From contig NZ_CP015519.1 of assembly GCF_001887775.1 (NCBI RefSeq), positions 992,001 through 1,056,000 of the forward strand: a stretch of 64,000 nt of DNA, read 5' to 3'. Below, one piece after another: positions 28,802-58,600 of this stretch. The position numbers and the translations under genes are program-made. The stretch comes from Syntrophotalea acetylenivorans. GTDB lineage: Bacteria > Desulfobacterota > Desulfuromonadia > Desulfuromonadales > Syntrophotaleaceae. Position 1 is the first letter of the stretch; each line of letters starts with the position of its first letter. Under the pieces are notes generated by a model, which was not told the origin of the DNA, made no database searches, and saw only the letters and a program-made list of their open reading frames with translations.

Positions 28802-31105
28802 CTAGAGGTTGACCCTTCGTAACCGCAAGGCGTTGCTGACAACCGATACCGAGCTGAAACTCATGGCTGCGGCCGCAATGATGGGGCTAAGTAGTAAACC
28901 GAATACAGGGTAAAGGACCCCGGCGGCGATGGGCACACCCAAAGCGTTGTAGACAAAGGCGAAAAACAGGTTCTGACGAATGTTTCTCATCGTTGCCTGA
29001 CTTAGGGACCGGGCCCGTACAATGCCGCGCAGATCCCCCTTGACCAGGGTTACGCCGGCACTCTCCATTGCCACGTCGGTACCGGTACCCATGGCGATAC
29101 CGACATGGGCCTGGGCTAGAGCCGGCGCATCGTTGATACCGTCGCCGGCCATGGCAACGAAGTGACCCTGCTCCTGCAGTTCCTTGATCTTGACCGCCTT
29201 GTCTTGAGGCAGCACTTCGGCGCGCACCTCGTCGATGTTCAGCCTGCCGGCCACCGCTTGAGCGGTAGTCAGGTTATCGCCGGTAAGCATGACGATGCGA
29301 ATCCCGCTCTGATGAAGTTGGCGAATGGCCTCAGGAGTGGTTTCCTTGATTGGATCGGCCACACCAAGCAGGCCGGCAGCTTTGCCGTTCACCGCCACGA
29401 ACATGGCGGTTTGCCCTTCCTGGCGCAAAGTTTCGGCCCGATCCAGCAGCGCCCCTGGGTCAATTTTTTGTTCATGTAGAAGCTTCTGGGTGCCAAGCAC
29501 CACCTCGGCGCCGTCAATCTTGCCGACAACCCCTTTTCCGGTGAGGGATTCGAAATGTTCCGTAGTGGCGAGGGATATGCCGCGATCTTCAGCGCCCTGA
29601 ACGATGGCCGCAGCCAGGGGATGTTCACTACCCCGTTCCAAGCTTCCGGCCAGGCGCAATAGCTCGGCCTCGTCAAGACCTGCTGCCTCCACCGCAACCA
29701 GTTTGGGTTTGCCCTCGGTGAGGGTACCGGTCTTGTCCACCACCAGAGTGTTCACCTTGCGGAGATGTTCGACCGCCTCGGCGTTCTTGAACAACACCCC
29801 CAGGGTCGCCCCTTTGCCGGTGGCTACCATGATGGACATGGGTGTGGCTAGTCCCAACGCACAGGGACAGGCGATGATGAGCACCGCCACGGCGTTGATC
29901 AGGGCGTGGGCCATGCGCGGCTCAGGCCCGATCATGGCCCAGACAACAAAAGTAGCCAAGGCGATGGCCACCACCGCAGGCACGAAGTAACCGGCCACCA
30001 GGTCGGCCAGCTTCTGGATGGGCGCTCGACTGCGCTGCGCTTCGGCCACCATCTGTACGATCTGACTCAACAGGGTATCGGCACCGACCCGTTCGGCCTG
30101 CATGATGAGCGAACCGGTCTGGTTCACCGTGGCGCCGGTAACCGGGTCACTGGCCTGCTTGGCTACAGGCAGGGGTTCACCTGTGATCATGGACTCGTCG
30201 ATACTACTGGTCCCCTCAAGGACCACTCCATCAACCGGTACTTTCTCGCCGGGCCGCACCCGCAAACGGTCACCAACCATAACATCTTCTAGGGGAACGT
30301 CTGCCTCGCTTCCGTCCGCGGCAATGCGCCGGGCGGTCTTTGCTGCCAGACCCAGCAACGCCCGGATTGCCTTCCCGGTCTGGCTGCGGGCGCGCGCCTC
30401 CATGACCTGACCGAGCAGCACTAGGGTAGTGATCACGGCGGCGGCCTCGAAGTACACCGCGACCTCCCCTTCGGAACCTCGGAAGGAGGCCGGGAAAAAT
30501 TCCGGCCACAGCGTAGCCACGACGCTATAAAGATAAGCCACCCCGACACCGAGGCCAATGAGGGTGAACATGTTTAGACTGCGGTTGACCAGAGACTGCC
30601 AGGCACGCACGAAGATCGGCCAGCCGGCCCATAGAACCACGGGGGTGCTCAACACCAGTTGAATCCAGTTCCTGGTGCGGGGGGCAGCCAGCCCTTCAAT
30701 CCACTCTCCAAGCCCTGGAATCAATTCTCCCATAGCCAACATAAGCACCGGCAGGGAAATCACCGCCCCTACCCAGAAACGCAAGGTCCAGCCCCTCAAT
30801 TCAGAACTTTCCCCCTCTTCTTCCAGACTTACCACCTTGGGTTCGAGATCCATGCCGCATTTGGGGCAACTGCCCGGTCCGATTTGCACCACCTCTGGAT
30901 GCATCGGACAGGTATACTCGCGCTGGTCTTGGCCAGGAGTTGGCTTTTTACCTTTTTCGCGGATCTTGGCCAGGTACACTTCCGGATCTTGCTGGAACTT
31001 TTCCAGGCAACGCACAGAACAGAAGTAATAGGTCTGTCCCTGGTGCTCCGTTTTTCCAGCCGATTTTTCTGGAGAGACGTCCATACCGCAAACGGGATCT
31101 TTCAT
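28802..31105 (-). CDS. copA: Cu(I)-exporting P1B-type ATPase with YHS and HMBD N terminus (CopA-like)
   Basis: Inner-membrane copper pump of 767 residues. The N terminus has a YHS/TRASH domain ([20 protein letters not shown]) and then a heavy-metal-binding domain with [20 protein letters not shown], instead of HMA domains. Then come the CPC motif ([14 protein letters not shown]), [19 protein letters not shown] and [13 protein letters not shown]. The last helices have [11 protein letters not shown] and [16 protein letters not shown], the YN and MSS motifs that mark Cu(I) transport. I chose the ATG at 31105, five bases after GGAGG. It lies in the middle of the copper locus and complements the CusCBA pump by exporting Cu(I) into the periplasm. 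Confidence 0.94.
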
Positions 31106-31175
31106 GGTAGCCTCCATGTGTCTATCCACTGAAGCAGTCGACACCGTCTATAACCTTTTTTCGAAACTGCTTAGT

Positions 31176-33147: not shown

Positions 33148-36100
33148 TTAATCTTCCAGTTCTCCCGAGGCAGTCGCCTCCGAGCTGGGGTCCAAACTGC
33201 GGGCCCGCCAGATGAAGAAAACGACCGGATAGACCAGCATTTCCAACACCAATGAGGTGACCGAACCACCAACCATCGGTGCGGCAATGCGCTTCATTAC
33301 GTCAGCCCCTGCTCCGGTACTCCACATGATGGGAAAAAGGCCGGCAATAATGGTGATAACAGTCATCACCTTGGGGCGGATACGCTTGACAGCACCGTGA
33401 TGGATAGCCTGGGCCAAGTCGCCGCAAGTGCGCATGCGCCCCTTTTCCGTCCAGTTCTTGTGAGCAATATCGAGGTACAGCAGCATCACCACCCCGGTTT
33501 CGGCGTCGAGCCCGGCCAGGGCGATGAGGCCGACCCACACACCGATGGACATGTTGTAGCCGAGCAGGTAGAGCAACCAGAAGGCGCCCACCAGAGAGAA
33601 AGGCACAGCCAAAAACACGATGCCGGTTTTGATCGCCGACTTGGTACTCAGGTAAATCAGCACGAAGATCACCACCACTGTCAGCGGAATGATCAGCAGC
33701 AGACGCTCCCGGGTGGACTCGATGTACTCATACTGACCGCTCCAGACAAGGTTGTAGCCTTCCGGCAGCGTGATATTCTCCGCCACGGCCTTGCGGGCAT
33801 TCTTCACGTAGGTCCCGACGTCGATCCCCTTGAGGTCGACAAAAACCCAGGCGGTGCGCCGAGCGTTCTCGCTCTTGATGGCCCCCGGACCCTTCCGGAT
33901 GCGGATATCGGCAATCTGACCGATGGGTATGTGCTTGCCCTCGGCAATGGGGATCAGTACCCGTTTCAGGGCCGGCAGATCATTACGGTAGTCCTGCAGG
34001 TAGCGGACGTTGACCGGATAGCGCTCCAGCCCCTCGACGGCCTGGGTCACGTTCATGCCGCCGATAGCACTCTGGATAATGTCCTGCACGTCACCGACGG
34101 TGAGGCCGTAGCGGGCCACCTGGTCGCGGTCAATGATAAAGTCGAGGTAGTTGCCTCCCACCACCCGCTCGGAAAAGGCGCTCAGAGTCCCTGGCAAGGT
34201 TTGCACCAGAGCTTCGACCTGTTCGCCGAGATCGCTCAGAGTCTGCAAGTCCGGCCCCATGATCTTGATGCCGACAGGCGTCTTGATCCCGGTGGAGAGC
34301 ATGTCGATACGGGTCTTGATGGGCATGGTCCAGGCGTTCGTCAATCCCGGAAACTGAATAGCGGCGTTGAGCTCCTCGGTCAATTGCTCGACGCTGATCC
34401 GTTTCTCTTCCGGCCAGACCCAGCGCAACGGCACCTTCATCGGCTTGGTCCAGTCGGGCCAGTCGCTATAGAAACGTGCTGTATAGATCTCGCGCCACTC
34501 GTCCTCAGGCTTGAGCATGATAGTGGTTTCGATCATCGACAGGGGAGCCGGATCGGTGGCTGTTTCGGCGCGACCGATTTTGCCGAAGACGTGATGAACC
34601 TCTGGAAACTGGCGAATGATGCGGTCGGTCTGCTGCAGCAGTTCCCGGGCCTTGGTGATGGAGATCCCCGGCAGGGTGGTTGGCATATAAAGAAGATCCC
34701 CCTCATACAGGGGCGGCATGAATTCGGTGCCCATGCGGGACAGCGGATAAGCGGCCGAGAGGACCAGCAGCAGGGCCACCAGCAGGGTTGTCTTGCGCCA
34801 GCGCAATACAAAGTTGACCACCGGGTGGTAAAGGCGAATCAGAAGCCGGCTGATGGGATTGCGATCCTCGCTGTGAATCTTGCCGCGAATGAACCAGACC
34901 ATCAATACCGGAACCAGGGTGACGGCCAGTATCGCCGCCGCGGCCATGGAATAGGTCTTGGTGAAAGCCAGCGGCTTGAACAACCGCCCTGCCTGCTCCT
35001 GCAGGGTGAACACCGGCGCGAAGGACACGGTGATAACCAGCAGGGCGAAGAAGATGGTCGGGCCGACCTCCTTGGCCGCCGTGACGATGGCCTGGGTACG
35101 CGTTCTCCCCCCCTCGCCCTTCTCCAAGTGTTTGTGGGCGTTCTCCACCATAATGATGGCAGAGTCGACCATGGTGCCGATGGCAATGGCGATACCGCCC
35201 AGGCTCATGATGTTGACGTTAATCCCCTGGGCGAACATGATGATAAAGGCCATCAGGATCGCCACCGGCAGAGCGAGAATAACCACCGCCGCACTCGGCA
35301 GATGGAACAGGAAGAGGATAATCACCAGGGCGACGACTATGCTTTCCTCCAGTAGCTTCTCCTGCAGGTTAGATACGGAGCGCTGAATTAGGCCTGAGCG
35401 GTCGTAGACCGGGACGATCTCCACCCCTTCGGGAAGCCCGGCTTTGAGTTCCTGTAACTTGTCCTTAACGTTGTCGATGGTTTTCAGGGCATTTTCGCCG
35501 AAACGCATGACAATGATCCCGCCCACCGTCTCGCCCTCGCCGTTGAGTTCCGCCAGACCACGGCGCAACTCCGGCCCGATGCGCACCTGGGCGAGATCCC
35601 GCAACAGAATCGGCGTGCCCCGGCGGTCGGTGCCCACCGCTACCTTTTCCAGATCGGCCACCGACTGAATGTAGCCGGGGCTGCGCACCATGAATTCGGT
35701 CTCGGCCATCTCCACAAGACGACCGCCGACATCGTTGTTGCTACGCTTAATAGCCTTTTTGATCTGCGGAATGGTGATGTGATACGCTAGCAGCCGGTCG
35801 GGGTCGACCGCCACCTGATACTGCTTGACGTAACCGCCGATGCTGGCCACCTCGGATACCCCCTCCACGGCGGTCAACTCATAACGCAGAAACCAGTCCT
35901 GTATGGACCGCAATTGCTGCAGGTCGTGGCGGTCACTTTGCAGTGCGTACTCGTAGACCCAGCCTACCCCGGTGGCATCGGGACCAAGACTCGGCGTCAC
36001 CCCCTGCGGCAATCGGCCTGCCGCGTAGTTGAGATATTCGAGCACCCGGGAGCGGGCCCAATACAGGTCGGTGCCGTCCTCGAAGATGATGTAAACGAAG

Positions 36101-36372
36101 GAATAACCAAAAAACGAGTAGCCTCGCACCACTTTGGCTCCGGGCACGGCGAGCATCTGCGTGGTGAGCGGATAGGTAACCTGGTCTTCCACCACCTGCG
36201 GCGCCTGGCCCGGATACTCGGTAAAAACAATGACCTGCACATCCGAAAGGTCGGGAATGGCGTCGATGGGGATATTCTTCAGGGAATAGACCCCGCCCAC
36301 CATTAGAAAGGCGGTCGCCAGAATCACCATGAATTTATTGCGAACGGACCATTCGATTATTTTTTCAAGCAT
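33148..36372 (-). CDS. cusA: CusA-like RND copper/silver efflux pump
   Basis: Proton-driven inner-membrane RND pump of 1074 residues. Family motifs: DAIPDLSDVQVIVFTEYPGQ after the first helix, VVRGYSFFGYSFVYIIFEDG, GGIAIAIGTMVDSAIIMVEN in helix 4 and ALAGLDAETGVVMLLYLD in the second half. The 'GTMVDSAIIMVENAHKH' form and the pairing with a CusB that has metal-binding domains fit the Cu/Ag branch (HME4) rather than Zn/Co. The gene is intact over its full length, unlike czcA. The gap to cusB contains a repeat with ATGACCAATGAC-type units. A 652-residue antisense frame in this gene is a codon-bias shadow. Confidence 0.94.
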   Translation of the reverse strand: MLEKIIEWSVRNKFMVILATAFLMVGGVYSLKNIPIDAIPDLSDVQVIVFTEYPGQAPQVVEDQVTYPLTTQMLAVPGAKVVRGYSFFGYSFVYIIFEDGTDLYWARSRVLEYLNYAAGRLPQGVTPSLGPDATGVGWVYEYALQSDRHDLQQLRSIQDWFLRYELTAVEGVSEVASIGGYVKQYQVAVDPDRLLAYHITIPQIKKAIKRSNNDVGGRLVEMAETEFMVRSPGYIQSVADLEKVAVGTDRRGTPILLRDLAQVRIGPELRRGLAELNGEGETVGGIIVMRFGENALKTIDNVKDKLQELKAGLPEGVEIVPVYDRSGLIQRSVSNLQEKLLEESIVVALVIILFLFHLPSAAVVILALPVAILMAFIIMFAQGINVNIMSLGGIAIAIGTMVDSAIIMVENAHKHLEKGEGGRTRTQAIVTAAKEVGPTIFFALLVITVSFAPVFTLQEQAGRLFKPLAFTKTYSMAAAAILAVTLVPVLMVWFIRGKIHSEDRNPISRLLIRLYHPVVNFVLRWRKTTLLVALLLVLSAAYPLSRMGTEFMPPLYEGDLLYMPTTLPGISITKARELLQQTDRIIRQFPEVHHVFGKIGRAETATDPAPLSMIETTIMLKPEDEWREIYTARFYSDWPDWTKPMKVPLRWVWPEEKRISVEQLTEELNAAIQFPGLTNAWTMPIKTRIDMLSTGIKTPVGIKIMGPDLQTLSDLGEQVEALVQTLPGTLSAFSERVVGGNYLDFIIDRDQVARYGLTVGDVQDIIQSAIGGMNVTQAVEGLERYPVNVRYLQDYRNDLPALKRVLIPIAEGKHIPIGQIADIRIRKGPGAIKSENARRTAWVFVDLKGIDVGTYVKNARKAVAENITLPEGYNLVWSGQYEYIESTRERLLLIIPLTVVVIFVLIYLSTKSAIKTGIVFLAVPFSLVGAFWLLYLLGYNMSIGVWVGLIALAGLDAETGVVMLLYLDIAHKNWTEKGRMRTCGDLAQAIHHGAVKRIRPKVMTVITIIAGLFPIMWSTGAGADVMKRIAAPMVGGSVTSLVLEMLVYPVVFFIWRARSLDPSSEATASGELED

Positions 36373-36378
36373 AAATTT

Positions 36379-36475
36379 ATCCCATCATTGGTCACTGGTC
36401 ATTAGTCATTGAGTTAAAAGCAAAAAGCCCGATCATCTGTATTAAACAAATGACCAATGACAAATGACAATTTCA
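36379..36475. repeat. inverted set of short TGAC repeats between cusB and cusA
   Basis: A cluster of short units around TGGTCATTAGTCATTG (36388-36410) and, in opposite orientation, AAATGACCAATGACAAATGA (about 36449-36468). The pieces pair imperfectly across about 40 bases of loop. It lies in the intergenic gap of the cus operon. Confidence 0.55.
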
Positions 36476-36477
36476 CA

Positions 36478-37983
36478 TTATTCAAACAACGCTTCAAGAT
36501 CCTCTTCCGGCGTCTCATGCCCGGCGTGCTCATCGGCTGAATCCGTCTCGGCCTCCTTCGGCTCCAGCATCTTCTGAATCGCTTCACGCAATTTGCTTTC
36601 CGAATCGAACAGGAACTGCGCACTGGTAACCACCTTCTCACTGTCCAGAAGCCCCTGAGTAATTTCTATGTACCCATCCTGGTCCTGTACACCGGTCTTC
36701 ACCTCACGAGGTTCGAACTTGCCGCCTCCCAAGGCGACGAACACCGTCTGCTTCTCCCCGGAATTGAGAACCGCTTCGCCTGGTACGGCCAGCGCGTCCT
36801 GAACCTTTTGCGCCTGGATTCGCACATTGACATACATATCGGGTTTGAGCTCAAGACCAGGATTGTCGAACTCCAGTCGCGCCTTGACCGTACGGGTCTT
36901 GGGTTCGACGTAGGGATAGATAGTGCTTATTTCGGCAGTGAGGGACTTGTCGCCGACATAAGGCAGCAGTACTTCTGCCTGCTGCCCAACTTTGATCCAG
37001 GGCAGTTCGTATTCGTAGATATCGGCATAAATCCAGACCTTGGAGATATCGCCAATCTGGAACAGTTCCTGGCCGGCCTTGATGTGCTGGCCGGGCATGG
37101 CCATCTTCATGGTCACCACTCCCTTGTAGGGCGCATAAAGGGTCAATGTCTTGCGCACCTTGCCAGTCTTTTCCAATTGCCGGATCTGCCATGAGCTGAT
37201 GTCCCAGTAACGCAGGCGCTGCCGGGCCGCTTCCGCCAGCCGGGCGCCGCCGGCGGCAATTTCGGCAAAGGAGCTGTCTTTAAGAGCAGACCGGTTGCGC
37301 AGGGCCAGTAGGTACTCCTGCTGGGCCGCTACCAGTTTTGGGCTGTAGATTTCCAGCAGCGGCTGGCCCTTTTTCACAATCTGTCCGGTCTCGGCGACGT
37401 GCAGTTTTTCGATCCAGCCGTCCACCTTGGCGTTGATTGAGGTCACATTCGGTTCGTCGTAGTCGACGGTGCCGACGGTGCGAATAAGCCGATGCAGATC
37501 GCGTCGTTCTACCGATGCGGTGCGTACCCCCATGTTCTGGGCGGTGACCGGATCAATAGCGATGGTCGCGCCGGAAGGAGCCTCATCCTCGTAGACCGGC
37601 ACGAGGTCCATGCCCATGGGCGACTTGCCCGGTTCATCGCGGATGTAAGTGGGGTCCATTGGAGCCGCCCAGTACTTGATTTTACGCTCCCCTTTGCTTT
37701 CCTTGCCCTGGGGTAACTCGGCCGCTTCAGCCTGTCCAATAGTTCCGGACTTCACCGGGGTCAATGCCATGGCGCAAATAGGACAATCGCCCGGCTCGTC
37801 GGTGATGACCATCGGGTGCATGCCACAGGTATACTGCTGTTTCGCTGATTTCATCTCACTGTCATCGTGACCAGTATGTTCCGAAACAGATCCGACCTTG
37901 TGCCAGGCATACCAGCCCCCGCCAAATGCCAGGGGCAGAAAGAGCAGAATGATTATCAGTAACCGTTTTTTTGAAGGTTTCAT
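36478..37983 (-). CDS. cusB: CusB-like periplasmic adaptor with heavy-metal-binding N terminus
   Basis: Membrane-fusion protein of 501 residues. After the membrane anchor it has a heavy-metal-binding domain (YTCGMHPMVITDEPGDCPIC) and a second, degenerate copy without Cys (KYWAAPMDPTYIRDEPGKSP), the arrangement of CusB. Then barrel-sandwich, hairpin and beta-barrel domains (KVDGWIEKLHVAETGQIVKK, APYKGVVTMKMAMPGQHI). The C terminus is acidic with a His (EHAGHETPEEDLEALFE). It lies between cusC and cusA in the normal order. It picks up Cu(I)/Ag(I) in the periplasm for the pump. Confidence 0.92.
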   Translation of the reverse strand: MKPSKKRLLIIILLFLPLAFGGGWYAWHKVGSVSEHTGHDDSEMKSAKQQYTCGMHPMVITDEPGDCPICAMALTPVKSGTIGQAEAAELPQGKESKGERKIKYWAAPMDPTYIRDEPGKSPMGMDLVPVYEDEAPSGATIAIDPVTAQNMGVRTASVERRDLHRLIRTVGTVDYDEPNVTSINAKVDGWIEKLHVAETGQIVKKGQPLLEIYSPKLVAAQQEYLLALRNRSALKDSSFAEIAAGGARLAEAARQRLRYWDISSWQIRQLEKTGKVRKTLTLYAPYKGVVTMKMAMPGQHIKAGQELFQIGDISKVWIYADIYEYELPWIKVGQQAEVLLPYVGDKSLTAEISTIYPYVEPKTRTVKARLEFDNPGLELKPDMYVNVRIQAQKVQDALAVPGEAVLNSGEKQTVFVALGGGKFEPREVKTGVQDQDGYIEITQGLLDSEKVVTSAQFLFDSESKLREAIQKMLEPKEAETDSADEHAGHETPEEDLEALFE

Positions 37984-38092
37984 ATCATTGATCCAATTTC
38001 TAAGGAGTTCATCAGCAACTACCTAATTTTAAATACCTATCTAAGGCCGCACTCAAGAGGTCCTAGTGCCGAGACCTTTGAGGGCAGCAGGA

Positions 38093-39436
38093 CTATTCTG
38101 GTTTTAGCTTCGTTTGGAACGCGGGATCGAGATACTGCCCCACCGCCGCTTCAAGCTTAGCGAGGCTACGTCCATAGTCGGCTAGAGCACGATGGTAATT
38201 GATCTGGTAACGATACGAGGTCATCAGGCTATCGAGCAGGTTGAGAAAATCGACATCGCCGACCTGGTAAGCGGACAGGCTCGCCTCGAAACTTTGCTCA
38301 GCCTGAGGGATTATCCCGGTCTTGAACAATTCCACCAAGTCGCGGTTCTTTTCCATCTGCGCGTACTGATCGGAAATGTCGAAATCGACCCGGTTACGGA
38401 AATCCTCGAACTGCCTACGCGCCATGCGCATCCCAGAATCAGCTTCGGCCACCGCCTCCCTCCGCTTACCTTGCCAAAGAGGAAGGTTGATGCTGACACC
38501 AGCGCTAACAAAGTCGCTGCCCTCCACCGGGTCTCCCGGCACATCTTCCCGCTGACGGTATCCCGCAAAGACGTTGAAGTCTGGATAGTAATCAAGCTTC
38601 TTCAGCCTGCGCTGCGCTTGGTAGCGATCGATTACCGCCTGATATGCTCCGAACAGAGGGCGTTGAGATCGTGACAATTCGATCAACTGCTGCAGACTCG
38701 CATCGACCGGCGGCAGCGTAAGGTTCTTAGGCGCATCCATCGGTGTTGCAACAGGACGGTTCAACAGTCGGTTAAGATCAGCCAAGGCGGTGATCCGCTG
38801 CTGCTCCAAGTTGAAAAGCTTGTCCTGAAGTTTCGAACGTTCAACCTGGGCTTTAAGCACATCCTGCTGATGTCCGGTACCGACTTCATAGCGAGTTTCG
38901 GTCAGACGAATAAAGTCCTGCAGGATGGCGATATTCTCGCTGGTTATGGCGATGGCCTGATCCTGAAAATATACCAGATACCAGGCATCCTTGACTCGCT
39001 GTACCAGTTGCCCTTTGGCATCTTCATAGACGCCTCGGAACCACAACGCCTGTTGCTTGGCCATATCTTCTTTGGCGCCCAGTTTGCCGGGAAAAGGAAA
39101 CATCTGGGACAACTGAATCTCCTTCCCGGTCATGGGTGTTTCGTCGCCGGAAAAACTGTCGACAGGATAGTTCGACAGTGCAAAGCTCAGCCGTGGATCA
39201 TCCAAGCTGCGGGCTGGGATCACCTTGTGTTCAGCCATTCTCCACCGCGATTCGGCGGCCTGCAGGTCTGGGTTGTTGGCCAGCGCCTCTTCTACCAGAG
39301 TCATAAGTTGTATCTGCTCGTTTTTCGTGTTTGCCGTCAGTGTTGAAGCCTTTTGCTGTGCCATTGCTGGGGAAACACTACCCAATGACAGAAACCCAAC
39401 CAATAGGCCCACAGCCAACAAATTATGGGATGTCAT
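38093..39436 (-). CDS. cusC: CusC-like outer-membrane factor
   Basis: TolC-family outer-membrane channel of 447 residues, signal peptide MTSHNLLAVGLLVGFLSLGS then a cut near AMA. It has the paired OEP halves (LVEEALANNPDLQAAESRWR; DYYPDFNVFAGYRQRED; GDVDFLNLLDSLMTSYRYQI). It is the first gene of the CusCBA set on the minus strand, followed by cusB after about 110 bases. There is no N-terminal lipidation Cys, so it is probably not a lipoprotein. Confidence 0.88.
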   Translation of the reverse strand: MTSHNLLAVGLLVGFLSLGSVSPAMAQQKASTLTANTKNEQIQLMTLVEEALANNPDLQAAESRWRMAEHKVIPARSLDDPRLSFALSNYPVDSFSGDETPMTGKEIQLSQMFPFPGKLGAKEDMAKQQALWFRGVYEDAKGQLVQRVKDAWYLVYFQDQAIAITSENIAILQDFIRLTETRYEVGTGHQQDVLKAQVERSKLQDKLFNLEQQRITALADLNRLLNRPVATPMDAPKNLTLPPVDASLQQLIELSRSQRPLFGAYQAVIDRYQAQRRLKKLDYYPDFNVFAGYRQREDVPGDPVEGSDFVSAGVSINLPLWQGKRREAVAEADSGMRMARRQFEDFRNRVDFDISDQYAQMEKNRDLVELFKTGIIPQAEQSFEASLSAYQVGDVDFLNLLDSLMTSYRYQINYHRALADYGRSLAKLEAAVGQYLDPAFQTKLKPE

Positions 39437-41420: not shown

Positions 41421-41968
41421 CCAATCACTCCCTCAAAGCTACATGTTGAAAAGGTTTGACGGGAAAACTTTCGTTTAAGTCCTCGCCAGACCACTATCTG
41501 TTCCTGCCCTACAATTACGAAATAGACTGGAACCCCAGGCAATACACATTTTTTTAGGACATTGCGCCAATCCCCGTAGTCAGTGGATGATGGAGAAGGA
41601 ATAGGTTCTGGATGGGTATGCCAAGTAGCAAGTAATTGCCCAGTTTGGTGGGTGGCTTTCCAACGATTTTTTAGCCAGTCGATATGACCATAATTACGAA
41701 AAAAGGATGATCGCGTTTGAAAGTCTTCCCTCATAGGAGTGGATATTTCGTCGGCGACAGAAGTTTGAGTACCTGATATGCGTCGGCCAATTATAAATCC
41801 TCCCGATTCCATCATTTCTCGATTGAGTTGCCTAAACGAGAGCAATTCAGTGTATAAATTTTCTGGTATAGCGAGGCTATAACCTTCACAAGACCAGACG
41901 TGCTCTTTATATGTGTCTGTTGGTTCTTTAGTTTCTACAGATTGGGCAACCAGTATTCGTTTTCTCAT
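41417..41968 (-). CDS. cap3: CBASS Cap3-like JAB/MPN isopeptidase
   Basis: Metalloprotease of 183 residues that is expected to remove the conjugated CD-NTase. The JAMM zinc motif is complete: a Glu in REMMESGGFIIGR near residue 50, HTH in ATWHTHPEPIPSPSSTDYGDW, and the closing Ser and Asp. I took the ATG at 41968 (MRKRILVAQS), which overlaps the end of cap2 by 41 bases; the open frame goes up to 42055 but inside cap2. It lies between Cap2 and the effector, in the usual type II order. Confidence 0.85.
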   Translation of the reverse strand: MRKRILVAQSVETKEPTDTYKEHVWSCEGYSLAIPENLYTELLSFRQLNREMMESGGFIIGRRISGTQTSVADEISTPMREDFQTRSSFFRNYGHIDWLKNRWKATHQTGQLLATWHTHPEPIPSPSSTDYGDWRNVLKKCVLPGVPVYFVIVGQEQIVVWRGLKRKFSRQTFSTCSFEGVIG

Positions 41969-43589
41969 CCCACCATAAATCCTTTTCCGGAAAGCCACTG
42001 TCATACACAGGTGAACGATTGATTTCATTATGTATTGCTTGCTTTTTGTCCCCACGCCAAAACTCGTAAAAGCTTTTTTCTTTACTTGTTAGCGCGGTCT
42101 CGATCGTCCTTGTTGCTAGGAGAGCTGTCTGCCTAGAATCATTTGCACTGAAAGGAGAAAAGGACCCTCCGCAACCAGTAAGGTTTTTGGATACTTTTTG
42201 ATTAGGAGTGATGAAAGAAACTTGTGGGTGTATGAGTTGACTGCCGCCCTCGAAATATAAACAATTAAGGCATCCATGTTGCCCTGTTTGGTGTAAAACG
42301 ACATGTCCACCAAGGCCAAGTGGCTCATTCCATACTGACATTATCTTTTGTCCTAGCGAAGAATTCCTTATGAAGGTCTTTAACAGTTGCCTTTCGAAGG
42401 CATGATTTCCCGTTGCTAGGATGATGAGGTCATGTTGCTGGATATTCTCAGGGGTCGCCCACTTTGCACCATTGTCGCTGCTTGCTTTAAGTGACAAATC
42501 GAGGAACGCTGATTCAAGAAACATTTTAAGGCCAGCAGCTTTTCCTCCTCCAATAAAGTATTTTGGAAGGACGTGCCTGTACAAATTATCAGCGGAATAA
42601 ATGTCAGGATCAACAAGTGTCAGGTTGTCAAATCCGCTTTGAACGAGCATTTGCGAGATCATGCTGCCGATGGATCCACAACCAATCATAGCAACTCGTT
42701 GAGATTTAATGGCGGCGTGGATAGTTAGGGAGGCTCGTTTTTGTAAGTAGTCCTTGTGGAATCTAGAAACGGGGATGTGATGAACTCTGTAGCTTGCTCC
42801 ATCCTTATTAACAAGAATGCCAAATGCACCACGTTCACCCTTTTCGCGCGGAAAAGAAAAAATATATCTCTGCCATGGCTTGTTAACAAATTTCTCTAGT
42901 TCAGGGAGCTCAGGCAGAAAGCTGTTTACTAATTTCAGTAGGTCATTAAATGACCAGTATTCCCCTGGCAGAGGTGGGTCAATGTGTTGATCTCTAAGGG
43001 GTAAATAGTATCCTCGGACACCGTGTGCTGGTGATTTTTTTTCAGTGGTTCTCTTCCAATCTTTTTCGCTCACACCCCAGCACTGATTTCGCTCTGAGTA
43101 CCATTTATATTTATGCGAAGTTTTCGACTCGCAATATGCCCATAATTTATGCGGTGTTTCTTCTAGAGGGAAATAACATTGGTAGTTAGTACTGGGTTTG
43201 ATTTTTATAATTCCATCCATATAACCTTCAAGTTCAGAGAAAAATTCAGTGAGGTTGCCACTAGATCCATCATCAAGAACTTTTATCGCCATCTGGAGTG
43301 ATTTTAGAAGTACAGATTCTAAGTCTTCATCAGTAAAAAAAAGTCCTTCCCCGTCGTTATAACAAACTACCCGGTACCAAGCTACATGTGGGCGATGCTT
43401 GTCGCAATGTCTATCATCTAGATAAATTTGAGGTAGCTTTCCAGTGTCAAGCCAACGTGCACTAAGAGACCATACGTTTCTCTGTCCCTTAAAGTTGAAA
43501 CTGAAATGCTCCTGCTGTTGAGGGATAGGTTTGATGTCCCATGCACCAACAGCTTCAAGAAGCTCTGCTAGAGGTACGGGTTGGTTCAC
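41928..43589 (-). CDS. cap2: CBASS Cap2-like E2-E1 fusion protein
   Basis: Protein of 553 residues joining an N-terminal E2-like domain and a C-terminal E1-like adenylation domain. The E2 Cys is probably Cys76 in VVCYNDGEG. The E1 nucleotide loop is MIGCGSIGSMISQ (residues about 301-313), followed by LVDPDIYSADNLYRH. A later Cys in LTGCGGSFSPFSANDSRQTA is the likely E1 catalytic Cys, and zinc-binding CLNCLYF and CPICRN pairs follow. Known for the family: it ligates the C terminus of the CD-NTase to a target, priming it. The start overlaps the CD-NTase stop by four bases. Confidence 0.9.
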   Translation of the reverse strand: MNQPVPLAELLEAVGAWDIKPIPQQQEHFSFNFKGQRNVWSLSARWLDTGKLPQIYLDDRHCDKHRPHVAWYRVVCYNDGEGLFFTDEDLESVLLKSLQMAIKVLDDGSSGNLTEFFSELEGYMDGIIKIKPSTNYQCYFPLEETPHKLWAYCESKTSHKYKWYSERNQCWGVSEKDWKRTTEKKSPAHGVRGYYLPLRDQHIDPPLPGEYWSFNDLLKLVNSFLPELPELEKFVNKPWQRYIFSFPREKGERGAFGILVNKDGASYRVHHIPVSRFHKDYLQKRASLTIHAAIKSQRVAMIGCGSIGSMISQMLVQSGFDNLTLVDPDIYSADNLYRHVLPKYFIGGGKAAGLKMFLESAFLDLSLKASSDNGAKWATPENIQQHDLIILATGNHAFERQLLKTFIRNSSLGQKIMSVWNEPLGLGGHVVLHQTGQHGCLNCLYFEGGSQLIHPQVSFITPNQKVSKNLTGCGGSFSPFSANDSRQTALLATRTIETALTSKEKSFYEFWRGDKKQAIHNEINRSPVYDSGFPEKDLWWDEKTNTGCPICRN

Positions 43590-44629
43590 GCATTGGCCCC
43601 CGTAGTTCCGATAGCCGTTGCAGCTTTTTGTGCGGTGTCTTCTTTGGGCAGGACATCAAAGTCATCACCAAATTGATTTTTTAGCTTTTTGGAAGCTTCG
43701 TGTGGGCAGATGAAATCAATAGATTGCTGTAGGGCTTCTTTGAGGTTATTTAGCTTAGAAATATATGTTTCCATTTGGTTTTCAGTCATTAGCTCATTTA
43801 GGTCAGAATTGGGATAAACAATGAGATAACTATAAACTCTGTCGTTAATAACGTTGTTTAGGATATCTGTAACCAGATTAAGAAATGCCTGCTGATCATT
43901 TGGTTTTGTTCCGGAGCCTGGAATTGTCTCTTGCACCGGTTGAAACCTTTCATAGACTTCACATGTAAGAGAGATACTTATAGGCTTGTTCAATGCTTGC
44001 TTGTCGCGCCAGCGTTTAAACATGCGAATAACCCTCCGCATTTGATGGCGAGATTCGGTGTTGTCTTCACCTGGAAACCGATTGTTGATTTTTTCAATCA
44101 ATCCCTTGGGGTCATTGGTTTCCCACTTTTTTTCTGTAGGAGCAGAGTTCAGTTTCCCCTTGGCTAAATCTAGAAGTCCATCAATGCTATTCGAAGTCAT
44201 ATAGCAGGCAAGATCTACGTGATATCCGCTCTCACTATTGGTTGCAGCATAGGACACTGTAACGCAGGGGCGTTTGACTTTAACTGTGCGGGCTGGATGG
44301 TTCAGAGCTTTTAATACCCTCTTTTTTAGCTCTACAGGGTCATCAATATAAGCCTGGTGTTTCTCGGCGTTCAAATCGAAAACTAAACCCACGTCGATAT
44401 CGAACTCATCCTGGTCCTGTTTGAAGGGCTTTACGCCAGTGTGCATAGCGTAGCTTCCTTGATTAAATTCTTTAAAATACAGCTTTGGGTCATCTTCATC
44501 AGAGTTTAAATTATCCCGAAGATTTTTGATTAGAAGGTCGCGCTTGTCCTTTAGCCGTTCGTTTTTTTCAAAACCCTTGAGCCTAATCTTGTCGTGAAAA
44601 TTGTTCATTTGCTTTTGAAGATTAGCCAT
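43586..44629 (-). CDS. CBASS CD-NTase (cGAS/DncV-like nucleotidyltransferase)
   Basis: Protein of 347 residues, the signal-making enzyme of the operon; it is predicted to make a cyclic di- or trinucleotide on phage infection. The nucleotidyltransferase site is GSYAMHTGVKPFK (residues 58-70) followed by the metal-binding Asp pair in DEFDIDVGL (Asp77 and Asp79) and a third Asp at about 139 (YHVDLACYM). The end, TGANA, provides a flexible small-residue C terminus like those conjugated by Cap2. The ATG at 44629 follows GGAGG. The subfamily (A to H) and product cannot be told from this sequence alone. Confidence 0.9.
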   Translation of the reverse strand: MANLQKQMNNFHDKIRLKGFEKNERLKDKRDLLIKNLRDNLNSDEDDPKLYFKEFNQGSYAMHTGVKPFKQDQDEFDIDVGLVFDLNAEKHQAYIDDPVELKKRVLKALNHPARTVKVKRPCVTVSYAATNSESGYHVDLACYMTSNSIDGLLDLAKGKLNSAPTEKKWETNDPKGLIEKINNRFPGEDNTESRHQMRRVIRMFKRWRDKQALNKPISISLTCEVYERFQPVQETIPGSGTKPNDQQAFLNLVTDILNNVINDRVYSYLIVYPNSDLNELMTENQMETYISKLNNLKEALQQSIDFICPHEASKKLKNQFGDDFDVLPKEDTAQKAATAIGTTGANA

Positions 44630-44749: not shown

Positions 44750-45715
44750 TCATTTGTAAACAAGGTTCATTTTTTCAATTTCTTCCGCTATTTCAGTTCG
44801 TAATTTTTCAGGAGCTTCAACAACCACATCTGCACCATATTGCAAAATTCGCATTTTTACTTCATGAAATGCGGCCACAGGAAACGTCATTCGTAAGGAA
44901 CCATCAGTCAGTTCCTCAACACGCTGTTGAGGGTGCCAGCATTCTCCCTTAATCCATCTGGTACGGAATGGGTTGAAGCGCAAGATCACATCTACAAGTT
45001 CCTTCCCTTGGAATAGACCAAATCCACCGGCAAGTTGAGACTCCCATTCTTCTCTAGGTTTAAAGGAAAATATATCGTTCTTTAATTTTACTTTGTCTAT
45101 GCGAGATACGGTAAAGGTGCGCCATTCATTACGCAGGTGGCACAAGGCTATCATTATCCAGTTGCCCATATAGTGCTGGAGGTGATGTGGTTCGGCTGTA
45201 CGGTTAGTCACAACACCATCCCGTGGTGTTGTATAAGAGAATTCAATTACACGTTGTTCAAGCAGCCCCTGGAATATTGTTTGGAAAACTGTTGCTGTGG
45301 TTGGTGTATAGCCTATCCAAGTGGCGGAGAAAATCTCATCCAAACGATCAGGACTCATGCAGATTTGACTATCGACGGATATTAATTTTTGGAAAAAAGA
45401 TAAAATTTGTTCGCTGATTAAGCCACCAGCACTCGGAGATAATAGTTGGCGCGCGAGAAGTAAAGACAGAAGTTCCTCTTGGGTTATTTGAAAACGAGGC
45501 AATTCGTAAGAGTTGTCTGTGTAGCTGTATCCACGTTTTTTTGACCAGTAAATTAATGGCGCTTTCATTCGATCGCGCATGAAGTCAAGTGTGCGGCTTG
45601 CTGTTCGCCGATCTATTTCAAAGTGTTCAGACAAATGTCTCAGGTTTGGGTATGCGTTTTTACGTATCTGCGAATCAAACCAGTAAAACCGTTCAAATGC
45701 TAGAAAATCGCCCAT
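44750..45715 (-). CDS. WYL-domain transcriptional regulator (CapW/BrxR-like)
   Basis: Regulator of 321 residues. The N-terminal winged helix (FERFYWFDSQIRKNAYPN, then HLSEHFEIDRRTASRTLDFM) is followed by a WYL domain (HLQHYMGNWIMIALCHLRNE, then FTVSRIDKV) and a C-terminal WCX-like part. Proteins of this design beside CBASS (CapW) or BREX (BrxR) repress the defence operon until a nucleic-acid signal relieves it. Here it is upstream of and in the same direction as the CD-NTase, with a 120-base gap, rather than divergent. A TATAAT sequence overlaps its start codon, so the true start might lie a little downstream. Confidence 0.85.
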   Translation of the reverse strand: MGDFLAFERFYWFDSQIRKNAYPNLRHLSEHFEIDRRTASRTLDFMRDRMKAPLIYWSKKRGYSYTDNSYELPRFQITQEELLSLLLARQLLSPSAGGLISEQILSFFQKLISVDSQICMSPDRLDEIFSATWIGYTPTTATVFQTIFQGLLEQRVIEFSYTTPRDGVVTNRTAEPHHLQHYMGNWIMIALCHLRNEWRTFTVSRIDKVKLKNDIFSFKPREEWESQLAGGFGLFQGKELVDVILRFNPFRTRWIKGECWHPQQRVEELTDGSLRMTFPVAAFHEVKMRILQYGADVVVEAPEKLRTEIAEEIEKMNLVYK

Positions 45716-46287
45716 TATATAGGACCCCTTTCGTAATCATATCTCCATGCAAATTCCAAGGGGGGGGGGACTGTATTGCCTTCTAAACTTCACCTAGACA
45801 AACAAAACCGCCCGTCCAGCTAGGCTGTTTAAGGTGGTTCACTTTGGAAATTCAGTGTAGAACAGCACCCCTCCAAGACAAAACACTTCTTCTTATAAAT
45901 CTCTTAAGTAAGATCAAGCATTTATGACACCCCTGTCAAGAATCTTAATAAGGTGCTCACTAAAATTCGGACAATATAGAAAGATGCCCCTGCGGTGTAT
46001 AAGTTGCTTTCCGGCATATTGCAGACAGGCGCTACAGTGGAACAATTGCACATACAGACAAACCTACAGTTAGGTCTAGGCTGGTGCTAGCGGACAAAGA
46101 AATGGGCATGCCTTAACTTTTCAGCATGTTGTTATTGTTTGTTTTTCTATCCCGTTTTCATTGCTGAAAGCGACTTCTGCCTTCTCACCCGTTTTGCTTT
46201 CTCGTCAATACATTCTACTATTTAAAGAAACAAGGCCTGTATCTACTCGCGACTCCTTTTTCCCTAAAATATTTGGAGATTGCCCTC
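45716..46287. other. gene-free stretch
   Basis: 572 bases between the divergent CBASS regulator and the multicopper oxidase gene. A run of nine or more Gs lies near 45762-45770. No gene, repeat or clear operator seen; two divergent promoters must lie here. Confidence 0.4.
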
Positions 46288-48699
46288 ATGATCCGAACAG
46301 CTTTGATCTTATCGGTTTTCTGCGGACTCCTTCTGCCGTCCATGAGCCTGGCCGCTGTCAAGGAATACCATCTGACCATTGCTTTTGAAAAAGTCGCCAT
46401 TCAGGGTAAACAAGCCCAAGGCATGACCATTAACGGTAAGATACCCGGACCGGTCCTTCGCTTCAACAAAGGTGACCTGGCCCGAATCCATGTTACCAAC
46501 AAAATGGATGTGCCCACTTCTATTCATTGGCATGGCATTCTGGTCCCCCCGGGCATGGATGGCGTACCATTTGTCACCCAGCCACCCATTGCCCCCGGCA
46601 CTACCTTCACTTACGAATTTCCCGTCCGCCAGACTGGAACCTATTGGTATCACTCCCACTCAAACCTACAGGAACAAAGCGGTCTCTATGGTGCCATTGT
46701 CATTGCCGATGAAGAAGACAAACAGCATGCGGATCAAGACCATGTCGTTCTGCTTTCCGATTGGACTACAGATGATCCACATGAGGTATTACGCACCCTG
46801 AAACGTGGCAGTGAATGGTATGCCCTGGAAAAGGGCTCGGGCCAAAGCATTCTCGGCGCTGCCAATGCCGGCAAGCTGGGCGACTATTTTTATCGGGAAC
46901 TGCAACGCATGCCGCCCATGGACATAGCCGATGTGGCCTATGACTATTTCCTTGCCAATGGACAACCCGAAATTACTTTGGCCGCAAAGCCAGAGGAAAC
47001 TGTTCGCCTGCGCCTTATTGACGGCTCCGCCACTACCTATTTTCACCTGGAATATGCCGGGGGCCCCATGACCATCATCGGTGCCGATGGCCAACTTGTG
47101 GAACCTGATAACCAAAGCCGGTTTCTTGTCGGTGTAGCGGAAACCTATGATGTGCTGATCACTGTGCCAGACGTCGGAGCATATGAATTACGGGCAACCG
47201 CACATGACGGATCAGGCCATGCCTCTGTCTGGATTGGTTCCGGTAAACGGCACCCTGCATCTGACATTCCCAAACCCAACCTTTACCAAGGCATGCATCG
47301 GGGTAGCCTGGCGGACCTATTTTCCCTGACCCCGGCCGGCACCATGGGCATGTCTGATTCATTGGTGGAAAAAGGCCGCTTCGATCGCCCCGGCATGATG
47401 GGCATGCATGATGGCATGATGGACATGCACGATATGGATGAGGGTGCCTCAGATCCCACCCCAGACCCCATGAACCACATGATGGAAAAATCCAATGGCG
47501 CCGAACACAAACCGACCACCCATATGAACCACTCCCCTCCCCCTGAATCAAAAGAATCGGCTATTGAAGGCATGCATAGCCAGCATCTTTCGTCCATGTC
47601 GATAGCGACTGGACAAGAATATAAGACCTCTGATTCAACCTCCGTATTTTCCGGTCGGCAGTACGGAAGTCGATTTGGATTTCTGGAGGCGGACATTTCC
47701 TCAAGAAAGCAACTGGCACAGGAAGGCAGTATGCAACGCCCAGGCACCCCCTACCCCAGCCTGCGCTCCATTCGTTCCACAACCCTGCCTAAAAACAGAC
47801 CCGTTCGCGAAATCCGGCTGACCTTGGATGGCGACATGGAGCGATATGTCTGGTTTTTGAACAACAAGCCCTTGTCTGAAACCGACCACATCTTGATCAA
47901 GGAAGGGGAAGTCGTCCGTTTTATCATGATCAACCGAACCATGATGCACCACCCCATGCATCTGCACGGACATTTCTTCCGGGTTGTCAACGGCCAGGAA
48001 GATCATGCTCCCCTCAAACACACTGTTGACGTGGCTCCCATGTCCACCACGGTGATTGAATTTTATGGCAATGAGGTTGGCGATTGGTTCTTCCATTGCC
48101 ACCTGCTTTATCATATGAAGAGCGGCATGGCTCGCCTTGTCCATTACCAGGATTTCCAGCCGAATGAGGATGTCCAGGCGGTCCGACCCCAACTTTATGG
48201 TGACTCGTGGTACGCCTGGGCGCAGGCCGACTTTTTGAGCAACATGACCGAAGGGGTTTTCTCCATGAGTAATACCCGGACCATGTTCGATGCTGCCTGG
48301 GAAGTCGGCTGGCACGAAGTGGAAAAGACAGACTGGGAAGGTCTTTTCACCTTGGGATGGTACCAGAACCGATTCACTTCCTTTTTGGCTGGCATCGACG
48401 TTTTGGGTGAAGGTTCAGATGCGGAAGATTTGCGGGGTATTCTGGGATTGAAATATCTTCTGCCTCTGAACTTGGACTTCACCGCCTGGGTTGACACGGA
48501 GGCTGGAGCTCGGCTCATGCTGGAAAAGGATCTGGAGCTAACGCCCAGGTTGGCCCTCCATGGTGAGGTGGAATATGACACCCATGATAAATGGGAAGGT
48601 GCTGTTGGTCTGCATTACATGCTGAGAAGGGATCTTTCTCTGATTGGCAAGTGGCATTCCGAGTTCGGTTATGGCGGCGGGATTTCTCTACGTTTCTAA
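46288..48699 (+). CDS. multicopper oxidase (CopA/PcoA-like) with C-terminal predicted outer-membrane barrel
   Basis: Exported protein of 803 residues. The ATG at 46288 follows GGAGA and starts a signal peptide (ALILSVFCGLLLPSMSLAA). The oxidase part has all copper motifs: SIHWHGILVPPG, YWYHSHSNLQEQSG, HHPMHLHGHFF and FFHCHLLYHMKSGM. A Met/His/Asp-rich linker (MMGMHDGMMDMHDMDEG) lies mid-protein, as in CopA/PcoA. After about residue 630 there is an extra domain of about 170 residues with alternating strands (WYAWAQADFL, LFTLGWYQNR, HGEVEYDTHDKWEGAVGLHY) ending in LRF, which looks like the last strands of a CopB/PcoB-type outer-membrane barrel. So copA- and copB-like parts may be fused. Predicted role: periplasmic Cu(I) oxidation tied to the outer membrane. 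Confidence 0.88.
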   Translation: MIRTALILSVFCGLLLPSMSLAAVKEYHLTIAFEKVAIQGKQAQGMTINGKIPGPVLRFNKGDLARIHVTNKMDVPTSIHWHGILVPPGMDGVPFVTQPPIAPGTTFTYEFPVRQTGTYWYHSHSNLQEQSGLYGAIVIADEEDKQHADQDHVVLLSDWTTDDPHEVLRTLKRGSEWYALEKGSGQSILGAANAGKLGDYFYRELQRMPPMDIADVAYDYFLANGQPEITLAAKPEETVRLRLIDGSATTYFHLEYAGGPMTIIGADGQLVEPDNQSRFLVGVAETYDVLITVPDVGAYELRATAHDGSGHASVWIGSGKRHPASDIPKPNLYQGMHRGSLADLFSLTPAGTMGMSDSLVEKGRFDRPGMMGMHDGMMDMHDMDEGASDPTPDPMNHMMEKSNGAEHKPTTHMNHSPPPESKESAIEGMHSQHLSSMSIATGQEYKTSDSTSVFSGRQYGSRFGFLEADISSRKQLAQEGSMQRPGTPYPSLRSIRSTTLPKNRPVREIRLTLDGDMERYVWFLNNKPLSETDHILIKEGEVVRFIMINRTMMHHPMHLHGHFFRVVNGQEDHAPLKHTVDVAPMSTTVIEFYGNEVGDWFFHCHLLYHMKSGMARLVHYQDFQPNEDVQAVRPQLYGDSWYAWAQADFLSNMTEGVFSMSNTRTMFDAAWEVGWHEVEKTDWEGLFTLGWYQNRFTSFLAGIDVLGEGSDAEDLRGILGLKYLLPLNLDFTAWVDTEAGARLMLEKDLELTPRLALHGEVEYDTHDKWEGAVGLHYMLRRDLSLIGKWHSEFGYGGGISLRF

Positions 48700-48849: not shown

Positions 48850-49923
48850 ATGCCCAAAGATCCGATCTGCCAAATGGAAGTATCAGAAGAAACGGCCATA
48901 AGCGTTCAATGCGACGGCCAGCGCTTTTACTTTTGTTCAGAGGGGTGTCGCAGGAAGTTTCTAGAGGATCGCTCTTGCAAGAGGCCCACAGGGCCATTCG
49001 ATCTGATCATCATCGGTGGAGGGCCGGCTGGACTGACGGCGGCAACCTTCGCCGCCACTCTAAAGATGAAGGCTTTTTTGATCGCCAGGGATCTGGGTGG
49101 TCAGGCGGTCGATAGCACCAAGATTGAAAACTACATGGGGTTTGACTTCATCACCGGCCCAGAGCTGGTCTCCCGTTTTCAGAATCAGTTGCTTCATTCC
49201 CATTTTGTTGACCACCTGATGGATGAGGTGACCCGAATCATTCCCGAGAAAGATGCGTTCCACGTCGTCACTCGCGGAGAGGATACCTTTTTGACTAACG
49301 CTGTCCTGGTTACTACCGGCATGACTCGAAAGAAGCTTTATATCCCCGGAGAGGAGGAGTTTCAACGGCGTGGTGTATTCTACGGGAATATCCCCGACTT
49401 CTCCTTCGTTGAGGGCGAGGAGGTGGCCGTTATCGGAGGCGGTAACAGCGCCCTGCAGATCGTGGAAAACCTTCGAACCCTCGCCCGCCGAATCCACCTC
49501 GTTTCCACATCCAAACTGAAGGCCGATCCGGCCATTATCGAACGGGTAAAGGTATTCCCTAACCTGACAGTATACGAAGGGTACAGGACGTTGCAATTTG
49601 CTGGGGAGAATTCTCTGACCACGGTTGAGATAGAGAAAATGTCTGGGGGAAAACGCCTCTGCCTTTCCGTCCAGGGGGTATTTGTTGCAATTGGCCATGA
49701 ACCCAACTCGGCCTTGGTGGCGGACCTTGTGGCCCTGAATGAAAAAGAAGAAATTGTTATAAGGCCGGATTGTGCCACCTCACGTCCTGGCATTTTCGCA
49801 GCAGGCGATGTCACCGATGCATTCGGCAAGCGGATTATTATCGCTTCTGGCGAGGGTGCTAAAGCCGCTCTTGCGGCGAAGGCGTATCTTTTGAAAAAAG
49901 CAGGCGCGGAAGCCATAAGGTAA
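48850..49923 (+). CDS. flavoprotein with N-terminal YHS metal domain, thioredoxin-reductase-like
   Basis: Protein of 357 residues. Residues 1-45 are a YHS/TRASH domain (DPICQMEVSEE, RFYFCSEGCRRKF), a Cys-based metal site. Then a thioredoxin-reductase-like two-dinucleotide fold: FDLIIIGGGPAGLTAATFAA for FAD, GEEVAVIGGGNSALQIVENL for NAD(P), and SRPGIFAAGDVTD near the end. The CATC redox pair of thioredoxin reductase is missing: the matching stretch reads GVFYGNIPDFSF. So it is not a normal thioredoxin reductase; it may be a ferredoxin/flavodoxin-type or metal reductase, with the YHS domain supplying a metal or thiol site. It follows the multicopper oxidase gene by 150 bases, and the DUF3047 gene follows almost at once. 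Confidence 0.82.
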   Translation: MPKDPICQMEVSEETAISVQCDGQRFYFCSEGCRRKFLEDRSCKRPTGPFDLIIIGGGPAGLTAATFAATLKMKAFLIARDLGGQAVDSTKIENYMGFDFITGPELVSRFQNQLLHSHFVDHLMDEVTRIIPEKDAFHVVTRGEDTFLTNAVLVTTGMTRKKLYIPGEEEFQRRGVFYGNIPDFSFVEGEEVAVIGGGNSALQIVENLRTLARRIHLVSTSKLKADPAIIERVKVFPNLTVYEGYRTLQFAGENSLTTVEIEKMSGGKRLCLSVQGVFVAIGHEPNSALVADLVALNEKEEIVIRPDCATSRPGIFAAGDVTDAFGKRIIIASGEGAKAALAAKAYLLKKAGAEAIR

Positions 49924-49953
49924 AGCATGCTTCTACAGGAGAAAGTAAGAAGA

Positions 49954-50727
49954 ATGCTTAACTCTAGAAGACAAAGAATGGTGGCCCTGTTTTTCTTGCT
50001 TGGTCTGTTTGTTTTATCCCCAGAGCTTCACGCCGCTGAAGCTGGCCAGGCCCTTGACCTAGGTCTGTCTGCAGAGAAATTTCAGGACGGAAAGATCCCC
50101 GCGGGCTGGACTCTGCGCAAAAGGTTATTTGGGCCCACCAAGAAAGCCCAGGCCCGCTGGACCGTCAACGATGGGCAGCCTGCCGTCATGCTCCACTCCA
50201 AGGGCGCATTGACTTTTCTTGAAAAGCAGGTGGACATTGACTTACGTGAGTACCCCATCGTTTCCTGGAGGTGGAAGGTCAACAACATCCTTGAGGGGAT
50301 TGATGAAAAAACCTCCGCCGGCGACGACCACCCTATCCGAATTTTCTTTGTCTTCGAGCCAGATGCTTCCAAACAAACCTTCTGGTTCCGGTTGAAGAGG
50401 TTCCTCTATCTGGACAGCTTCCATGGTCACGCCATGGGCGGACGCATAACAGAGTACCTCTGGAGCAGCCATTTGCCGGCGGGAGAGATTTTGCCCGACC
50501 CCGGAAAACCTTGGCAGAAGCTGATGGTGGTCGAGGGAGGTCAGGAGAAACTGGGGCGGTGGCTCTCCTATCGCCGTAACCTTCGAGAGGATTTCAAGAG
50601 GCTCTACGGCGAGGAACCTCGCCAACTGATCTTCATCGGCATTCTGAACGACACCGATGCCAGCGACTTGGAAGCCGTCAGCTATATAGCGGATCTTTTC
50701 TTTCATCGGAGCACTGGACCCGAGTGA
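49954..50727 (+). CDS. exported DUF3047 protein
   Basis: Exported protein of 257 residues, DUF3047 type, function unknown. A signal peptide (MVALFFLLGLFVLSPELHA) is followed by a beta-rich domain with SWRWKVNNILEGIDEKT, AGDDHPIRIFFVFEPD and IFIGILNDTDASDLEAVSYI, the usual DUF3047 strings. I prefer the ATG at 49954, after AGGAGAAAG, over the ATG at 49927 that nearly touches the previous stop. It is probably cotranscribed with the flavoprotein. Many DUF3047 genes stand beside redox or metal genes; no role is established. Confidence 0.78.
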   Translation: MLNSRRQRMVALFFLLGLFVLSPELHAAEAGQALDLGLSAEKFQDGKIPAGWTLRKRLFGPTKKAQARWTVNDGQPAVMLHSKGALTFLEKQVDIDLREYPIVSWRWKVNNILEGIDEKTSAGDDHPIRIFFVFEPDASKQTFWFRLKRFLYLDSFHGHAMGGRITEYLWSSHLPAGEILPDPGKPWQKLMVVEGGQEKLGRWLSYRRNLREDFKRLYGEEPRQLIFIGILNDTDASDLEAVSYIADLFFHRSTGPE

Positions 50728-58525: not shown

Positions 58526-58600
58526 ATCGTTAGTTCCTTTGTTCAAGAAGAGAGAGCTGTTGTGGTAGCTGAGAAGAAATATTCCTCATGCTGTCTCCCT

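Follow-up and report, generated by a model that had tools for sequence, protein, structure and literature searches.

The closest described counterpart of the gene reported here is the PcoA-PcoB (CopA-CopB) pair, in which a multicopper oxidase is likewise followed by a 12-stranded outer-membrane barrel. In the published crystal structure, PcoB has 12 strands connected mostly by short loops, with its termini in the periplasm and a pore that is electronegative (PMC9210255). The direction in which PcoB works is disputed, uptake being argued in that account (PMC9210255) and efflux in another (PMC12509749), the latter also describing the stabilisation of PcoA by the N-terminal region of PcoB in Caulobacter. 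PcoB is described as always accompanied by PcoA (PMC9210255, PMC3548706), and one of these sources mentions fused PcoA and PcoB, detected in five Legionella species (PMC3548706).

Here we describe a gene of Syntrophotalea acetylenivorans in which oxidase and barrel form one polypeptide. It lies in a stretch of 64,000 nucleotides (NZ_CP015519.1, positions 992,001 to 1,056,000), the whole of which is hereafter called the window. Besides being a single chain, the protein differs from the PcoA-PcoB pair in the Sec-type instead of Tat signal on its oxidase, in a barrel too divergent for the CopB family model (PF05275) and in an oxidase that scores below the cut-off of TIGR01480, the CopA model. It shares the fusion of both proteins with the Legionella cases, which are likened here from their published description. 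The initial annotation of this DNA had remarked that CopA and CopB are normally separate genes, which is right, although Legionella provides a precedent for their fusion. They adjoin as separate genes in genomes of the same order such as G025, G031, G028, G040 and G045. The CopB frame beside CopA in G025 (L009:155-1504, minus strand) measures 449 aa, double the length of the CopB domain, and overlaps that of CopA. A PcoA-PcoB fusion as such is already published; no paper on the window lineage or on the Tat/Sec signal difference was recognised in a literature search that mostly covered sources other than subscription journals.

Organisation of the fusion gene

The analysis confirmed a single gene whose product comprises a Sec-type signal peptide, a multicopper oxidase of three domains, a loop rich in Met and His that is predicted to be disordered, and a further domain formed by the 162 C-terminal residues. 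Its features, in window coordinates, are the following.

46275..46278 (+): Shine-Dalgarno-like GGAG, 9 bases before the ATG, from the sequence
46288..48699 (+): entire fusion reading frame, 803 aa and stop codon
46288..46353 (+): signal peptide of the Sec type lacking a twin-arginine motif, residues 1-22 by an estimated cleavage site, from sequence comparison
46354..48147 (+): multicopper oxidase part, residues 23-620, from Pfam PF07732, PF00394 and PF07731 and TIGR01480
46525..46536 (+): copper motif HWHG, residues 80-83, from a motif scan
46651..46659 (+): copper motif HSH, residues 122-124, from a motif scan
47398..47640 (+): disordered Met/His-rich loop, residues 371-451, from a pLDDT below 50 in the full-length model and from Met/His counts
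47950..47970 (+): copper motif HPMHLHG, residues 555-561, from a motif scan
48094..48129 (+): copper motif HCHLLYHMKSGM, residues 603-614, from a motif scan
48166..48198 (+): short helix linking the oxidase to the barrel, residues 627-637, from the full-length model
48211..48696 (+): predicted 12-stranded CopB/PcoB-like outer-membrane barrel, residues 642-803, last residue Phe, from models, structure search and profile links

The three cupredoxin-type domains and all four copper motifs that mark CopA/PcoA oxidases are present, with HWHG, HSH, HPMHLHG and HCHLLYHMKSGM intact, as the initial annotation had stated. Cu-oxidase_3, Cu-oxidase and Cu-oxidase_2 all score above their Pfam cut-offs in the 803-aa protein, whose oxidase part ends near residue 622, and TIGR01480 gave 403.5 bits over residues 23-619 of the whole protein, short of its cut-off of 478.95. 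CueO-type oxidases share with the window protein the copper motifs and a Met-rich insert; unlike it, they are Tat-exported and, to our knowledge, have no C-terminal barrel.

Fold and relationships of the C-terminal tail

The tail alignment comprised 47 sequences, those of the window and of 46 loci from named genome records. Using these, AlphaFold2 modelled the tail alone as a short helix followed by 12 strands (mean pLDDT 94.4, pTM 0.81) separated by gaps of 2-7 residues, and a full-length model built on 44 sequences recovered the same 12 strands at residues 642-803 (mean pLDDT 83.8, pTM 0.83). The window tail is predicted to be a 12-stranded outer-membrane barrel. The central proposal of the initial annotation, a multicopper oxidase fused to a predicted barrel, is thereby borne out, and the extra domain that it had placed at residues 630-803 is nearly right, the barrel strands occupying 162 residues from 642 onwards.

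Structure prediction and comparison with CopB, the check proposed with that annotation, led to PcoB as the nearest solved structure. A Foldseek search of the tail model against 350,542 PDB chains returned PcoB as best match (7pge, E 5.4e-7; runner-up 7.1e-5), and VIA likewise ranked 7pge first (Z 17.0, rmsd 3.3, 162 residues aligned), ahead of outer-membrane phospholipase A (Z 14.5) and KdgM/NanC-type porins (12.4-14.2). Identity between tail and PcoB in the structure alignments was only 17%. Compared with viral structures by Foldseek, the full-length model retrieved two oxidases and weak matches, and none of 72 pattern matches to the tail in viral contigs was confirmed. An even strand number leaves both ends of a barrel in the periplasm, provided that it inserts as other outer-membrane barrels do, and for this reason the oxidase should face the periplasm.

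No Pfam family exceeded its cut-off in the window tail, the sole match listed being TamB (E 0.06-0.08), and PF05275 (cut-off 27 bits) gave no match to it up to E 5 with the HMMER filters applied. Across the 47 tails, PF05275 matched five at E up to 1 (best 1.8e-9), four of which (L063, L064, L059 and L067) stay below the family cut-off. Alignment of the tail profile with CopB by hhalign gave an E-value of 3.2e-5 at a probability of only 73%, over columns 62-174. All 18 CopB sequences outscored all 18 reversed controls with the tail HMM, and 17 of the 47 tails, that of the window included, outscored every one of 940 shuffled and 47 reversed sequences with the CopB HMM. Searched against PDB sequences, the tail profile matched no PcoB chain up to E 10, its best match being a designed 12-strand barrel (6e-5), and because a designed barrel was preferred over the PcoB chains, part of the profile signal reflects a generic barrel pattern. 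The EYDTHDKWEGAVGL stretch, which the initial annotation had called CopB-like, turned out to be a conserved motif of the tail family that is absent as a motif from the 18 aligned CopB of the order. A relationship of the tail to CopB is supported by fold and profile comparison, the sequence link being weaker but present.

Distribution, oxidase lineages and export signals

A search of GTDB genomes with the tail profile yielded 48 loci. Oxidase and tail stand in one frame in 46 of them, and the other two are broken or cut (L066 is an internally deleted copy and L068 is cut by a contig edge), which parallels the constant company of PcoA described for PcoB; no stand-alone tail was seen among these 48 related loci. 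A frameshift or assembly artefact as the source of the fusion was ruled out, the single-frame layout being identical in the 46 loci. The carriers, mostly metagenome bins with unsure names, include Desulfuromonas, Desulfobulbus, Halodesulfovibrio, Nitrospirae, Omnitrophota, Opitutaceae, Kiritimatiellae and Myxococcales. In one locus, L060, the stretch with the 817-aa fusion also contains another oxidase frame, 682 aa long and extending 199 residues past the HCH motif, perhaps a second copy.

In a sample of the phylum, 18 of 395 genomes possess the tail, and oxidases at least 53% identical to that of the window are confined to those 18 (next best, 46%). Since tail and oxidase share the same 18 genomes, the tail is a fixed part of the window oxidase lineage in this sample. 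By contrast, ordinary CopA has no barrel tail, as the unfused oxidases (14 of the order and 11 of the phylum sample) end 18-26 residues past the HCH motif. The possibility, raised with the initial annotation, that homologs would reveal a normal oxidase tail is thus half true: it holds within the window lineage but not for ordinary CopA.

Within the order, the tail occurs in 12 of 136 genomes, two of them with remnants, a match in G106 (9.7e-4, 30 residues with a stop) having been left out. The other four genomes of the genus gave no tail match; one of them encodes residues 1-39 of the protein where a contig ends, so that the gene may be cut. Two relatives retain degenerate remains of the fusion gene (G014 C10:44341-45055 and G085 C1:1673430-1674145), which suggest its repeated loss, and short frames of it stand at contig edges in G033 and G081. 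No PF05275 CopB was found in the window's genome. Fusion (12 genomes) and separate CopB (18 genomes) never co-occur among the 136 genomes of the order; mutual exclusion was nevertheless dropped as a claim, since chance gives zero overlap with a probability of 0.17.

The same order holds another oxidase-barrel fusion, L008:1414-3861 (G017). Like the window gene, it encodes oxidase and then barrel in one frame behind a Sec-type signal, but its oxidase groups with ordinary Tat-exported CopA and its tail is a clear PF05275 CopB (E 2e-68). A tree of 60 oxidase cores, built by a quick method, placed L008 with 14 unfused CopA, apart from 43 window-type fused and two Bacteroidota sequences. In a second tree, also by a quick method, with 21 unfused CopA and four short oxidases as outgroup, L008 was sister to the unfused rows with support of 95-100, and a single clade of all fused rows was rejected (AU p 3e-5). 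Ordinary CopA and the fused oxidase of the window belong to separate lineages, and L008 is a second fused type in the same order. The two types go back either to two fusion events or to a single ancient one that was afterwards undone in ordinary CopA; the statement that the fusion arose at least twice was withdrawn, as the sister position of L008 to unfused CopA fits the latter course too. Multicopper oxidase domain-containing proteins of two Bacteroidota plasmids (NZ_CP021236.1 and NZ_CP051683.1) have the same layout of oxidase and tail, with a tail identity of 25-27%, and differ in their long tree branches and in a tail that has no Pfam match at E up to 0.01.

Export signals, assigned by motif and by eye rather than by a signal-peptide program, follow the presence of the barrel. 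The twin-arginine (RR) motif is found in all 21 unfused CopA-type oxidases with intact N-termini, namely 14/14 in the order (excluding L115, cut at its 5' end, and L122, a frame without both motifs) and 7/7 in the phylum sample, or 11/11 in the latter with four shorter oxidases (L162 and L167-L169) included, which brings the unfused oxidases counted to 25. Two-domain oxidases (L014-L016, L132, L134 and L135) were set aside from the count for the order. The fused oxidases, those of the window and L008 included, have short hydrophobic Sec-type signals, and the window signal contains no RR motif of the kind expected of CopA/PcoA. A regular expression for this motif, scored in 42 of the 48 fused loci (six lack HWHG), matched once, in L049, before the likely start Met; it matched once more, in L146 and far before the likely start, among 17 distinct fused loci of the phylum sample, some of which repeat genomes of the 42-locus set. 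Under a looser test, which asked for RR immediately ahead of the stretch of highest hydrophobicity and was applied with duplicates removed, 4 of 63 fused oxidases were positive versus 24 of 25 unfused; the 63 are what is left of 65 (six positive) once L016 and an additional frame in L059, both of them different oxidases, are taken out, and still include the possibly tailed second frame of L060. By eye, RR precedes the likely start Met in three of the four positives (L045, L049 and L060), and the signal of the fourth, L153, begins MRRLGG, which we take to be off the Tat consensus. The sole unfused oxidase missed, L160, reads KRRTLLK.

Proteins that use Tat are translocated in the folded state, whereas outer-membrane barrels travel through Sec and arrive at the BAM complex unfolded. 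Fusion to a barrel would therefore force the oxidase onto Sec, with copper loading in the envelope. We tentatively propose that the joining of a barrel goes with a switch from Tat to Sec in two separate fused lineages, and that the oxidase of the widespread window lineage may travel unfolded, receive its copper no earlier than in the envelope and be coupled physically to a channel of its own, so that a single protein would both oxidise and export copper, in metal-exposed anaerobes too; this extended reading is possible rather than probable. The correlation amounts to a testable rule for how the export of an oxidase changes on attachment of a barrel.

Proposed function and genomic setting

The fusion protein is probably a single-chain analogue of PcoA-PcoB, that is, a Cu(I) oxidase tethered to the outer membrane and equipped with its own channel for copper resistance, for which we infer localisation, topology, oxidation and transport. 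The protein would be exported by Sec, and its C-terminal domain would insert in the outer membrane as a small, acidic, 12-stranded barrel with short loops, both ends of which would be periplasmic and hold the oxidase at that face. Copper exported from the cytoplasm, for which the region encodes a copper P-type ATPase, would be caught by the Met/His loop, and the type-1/trinuclear copper sites would convert Cu(I) to Cu(II), passing the electrons to O2. O2 is plausible in this role at times, since the window's genome encodes a COX1-family protein and cytochrome bd. Cu(II) would finally be handed to the adjacent barrel and pass across the outer membrane, the direction of transport being presumed. 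Cu(I) oxidation would in this way be fixed to the outer membrane, as the initial annotation had suggested. In a naturally fused chain, the ratio of the two partners and the side on which they act are fixed, and PcoA/PcoB cooperation and the direction of copper transport can be tested on one protein. Against the single-chain analogue, many carriers are named as anaerobe-type lineages, in which O2-dependent Cu(I) oxidation would rarely be running; the PF05275 miss on the window tail, the absence of PcoB chains from the PDB profile matches, the modest hhalign probability and the subthreshold TIGR01480 score also count against it, as do stretches resembling the window's copper ATPase at only 12 of the 48 loci, many of them on short contigs.

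Alternatively, the barrel, whether derived from CopB or only similar to it, may have lost the passage of copper and serve solely to tether the oxidase in the outer membrane. The failure of PF05275 to recognise the window tail would suit this reading, as would the shortness of the barrel (162 aa) and its lack of an extended N-terminal His/Met stretch like that in the published description of PcoB. We consider such a pure anchor unlikely, given that a comparison of 44 fused sequences shows conservation of polar positions in the barrel, D764, S791 and H790 among them, and that the tails are nearly as acidic as CopB (mean net charge of -9 in 47 tails vs -12 in 18 CopB).

An N-terminal enzyme with a C-terminal 12-strand barrel is, moreover, the layout of autotransporters, whose barrels appear further down the VIA list (EstA, Z 11.4; BrkA, 10.8; NalP, 10.5), and Desulfuromonas-type bacteria live with extracellular metals, the Geobacter oxidase OmpB being a precedent for an oxidase on the outer surface. 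Display of the oxidase outside the cell, where it would oxidise metals or contribute to extracellular electron transfer, is nonetheless quite improbable, as PcoB is the better structural match (Z 17.0), the loops and linker helix are short, and the 15 Pfam families matched by the 47 tails include no autotransporter family (PF03797-type). Among those same 15 families CopB has the best E-value (1.8e-9 vs 6.2e-4 for TamB), which, with the first place of PcoB in both the Foldseek and VIA rankings, makes it very improbable indeed that a small outer-membrane barrel unrelated to CopB was joined to the oxidase and kept as an anchor, even though the PDB profile search preferred designed barrels and identity to PcoB is only 17%.

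Genes of the same region are listed below.

28802..31144 (-): copper-type P-type ATPase, from domain models
33148..39436 (-): CusA-family, CusB-like and TolC-like efflux genes, from domain models
48850..49923 (+): downstream gene for a metal-binding YHS domain fused to a thioredoxin-reductase-like flavoprotein, from domain models
49927..50727 (+): downstream gene for a DUF3047 protein, from Pfam

The YHS/flavoprotein gene presumably shares a transcription unit with the fusion gene, and a homologue of it lies directly behind the broken fusion copy L066. At least one of twelve window neighbours tested was found at 18 of the 48 loci. The fusion gene is separated from the Cus efflux genes by a CBASS-type defence operon (40392-44629, minus strand) encoding an oligonucleotide cyclase, an E1-E2 protein, a JAB protease and a SAVED effector that matches 2TM-type models; a gene for a WYL-domain regulator (44750-45715, minus strand) adjoins it. 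The window also encodes the arsenical pump ATPase ArsA (56798-58546, minus strand; 758 bits, above cut-off), the presence of which may mark the region as a wider metal-resistance cluster.
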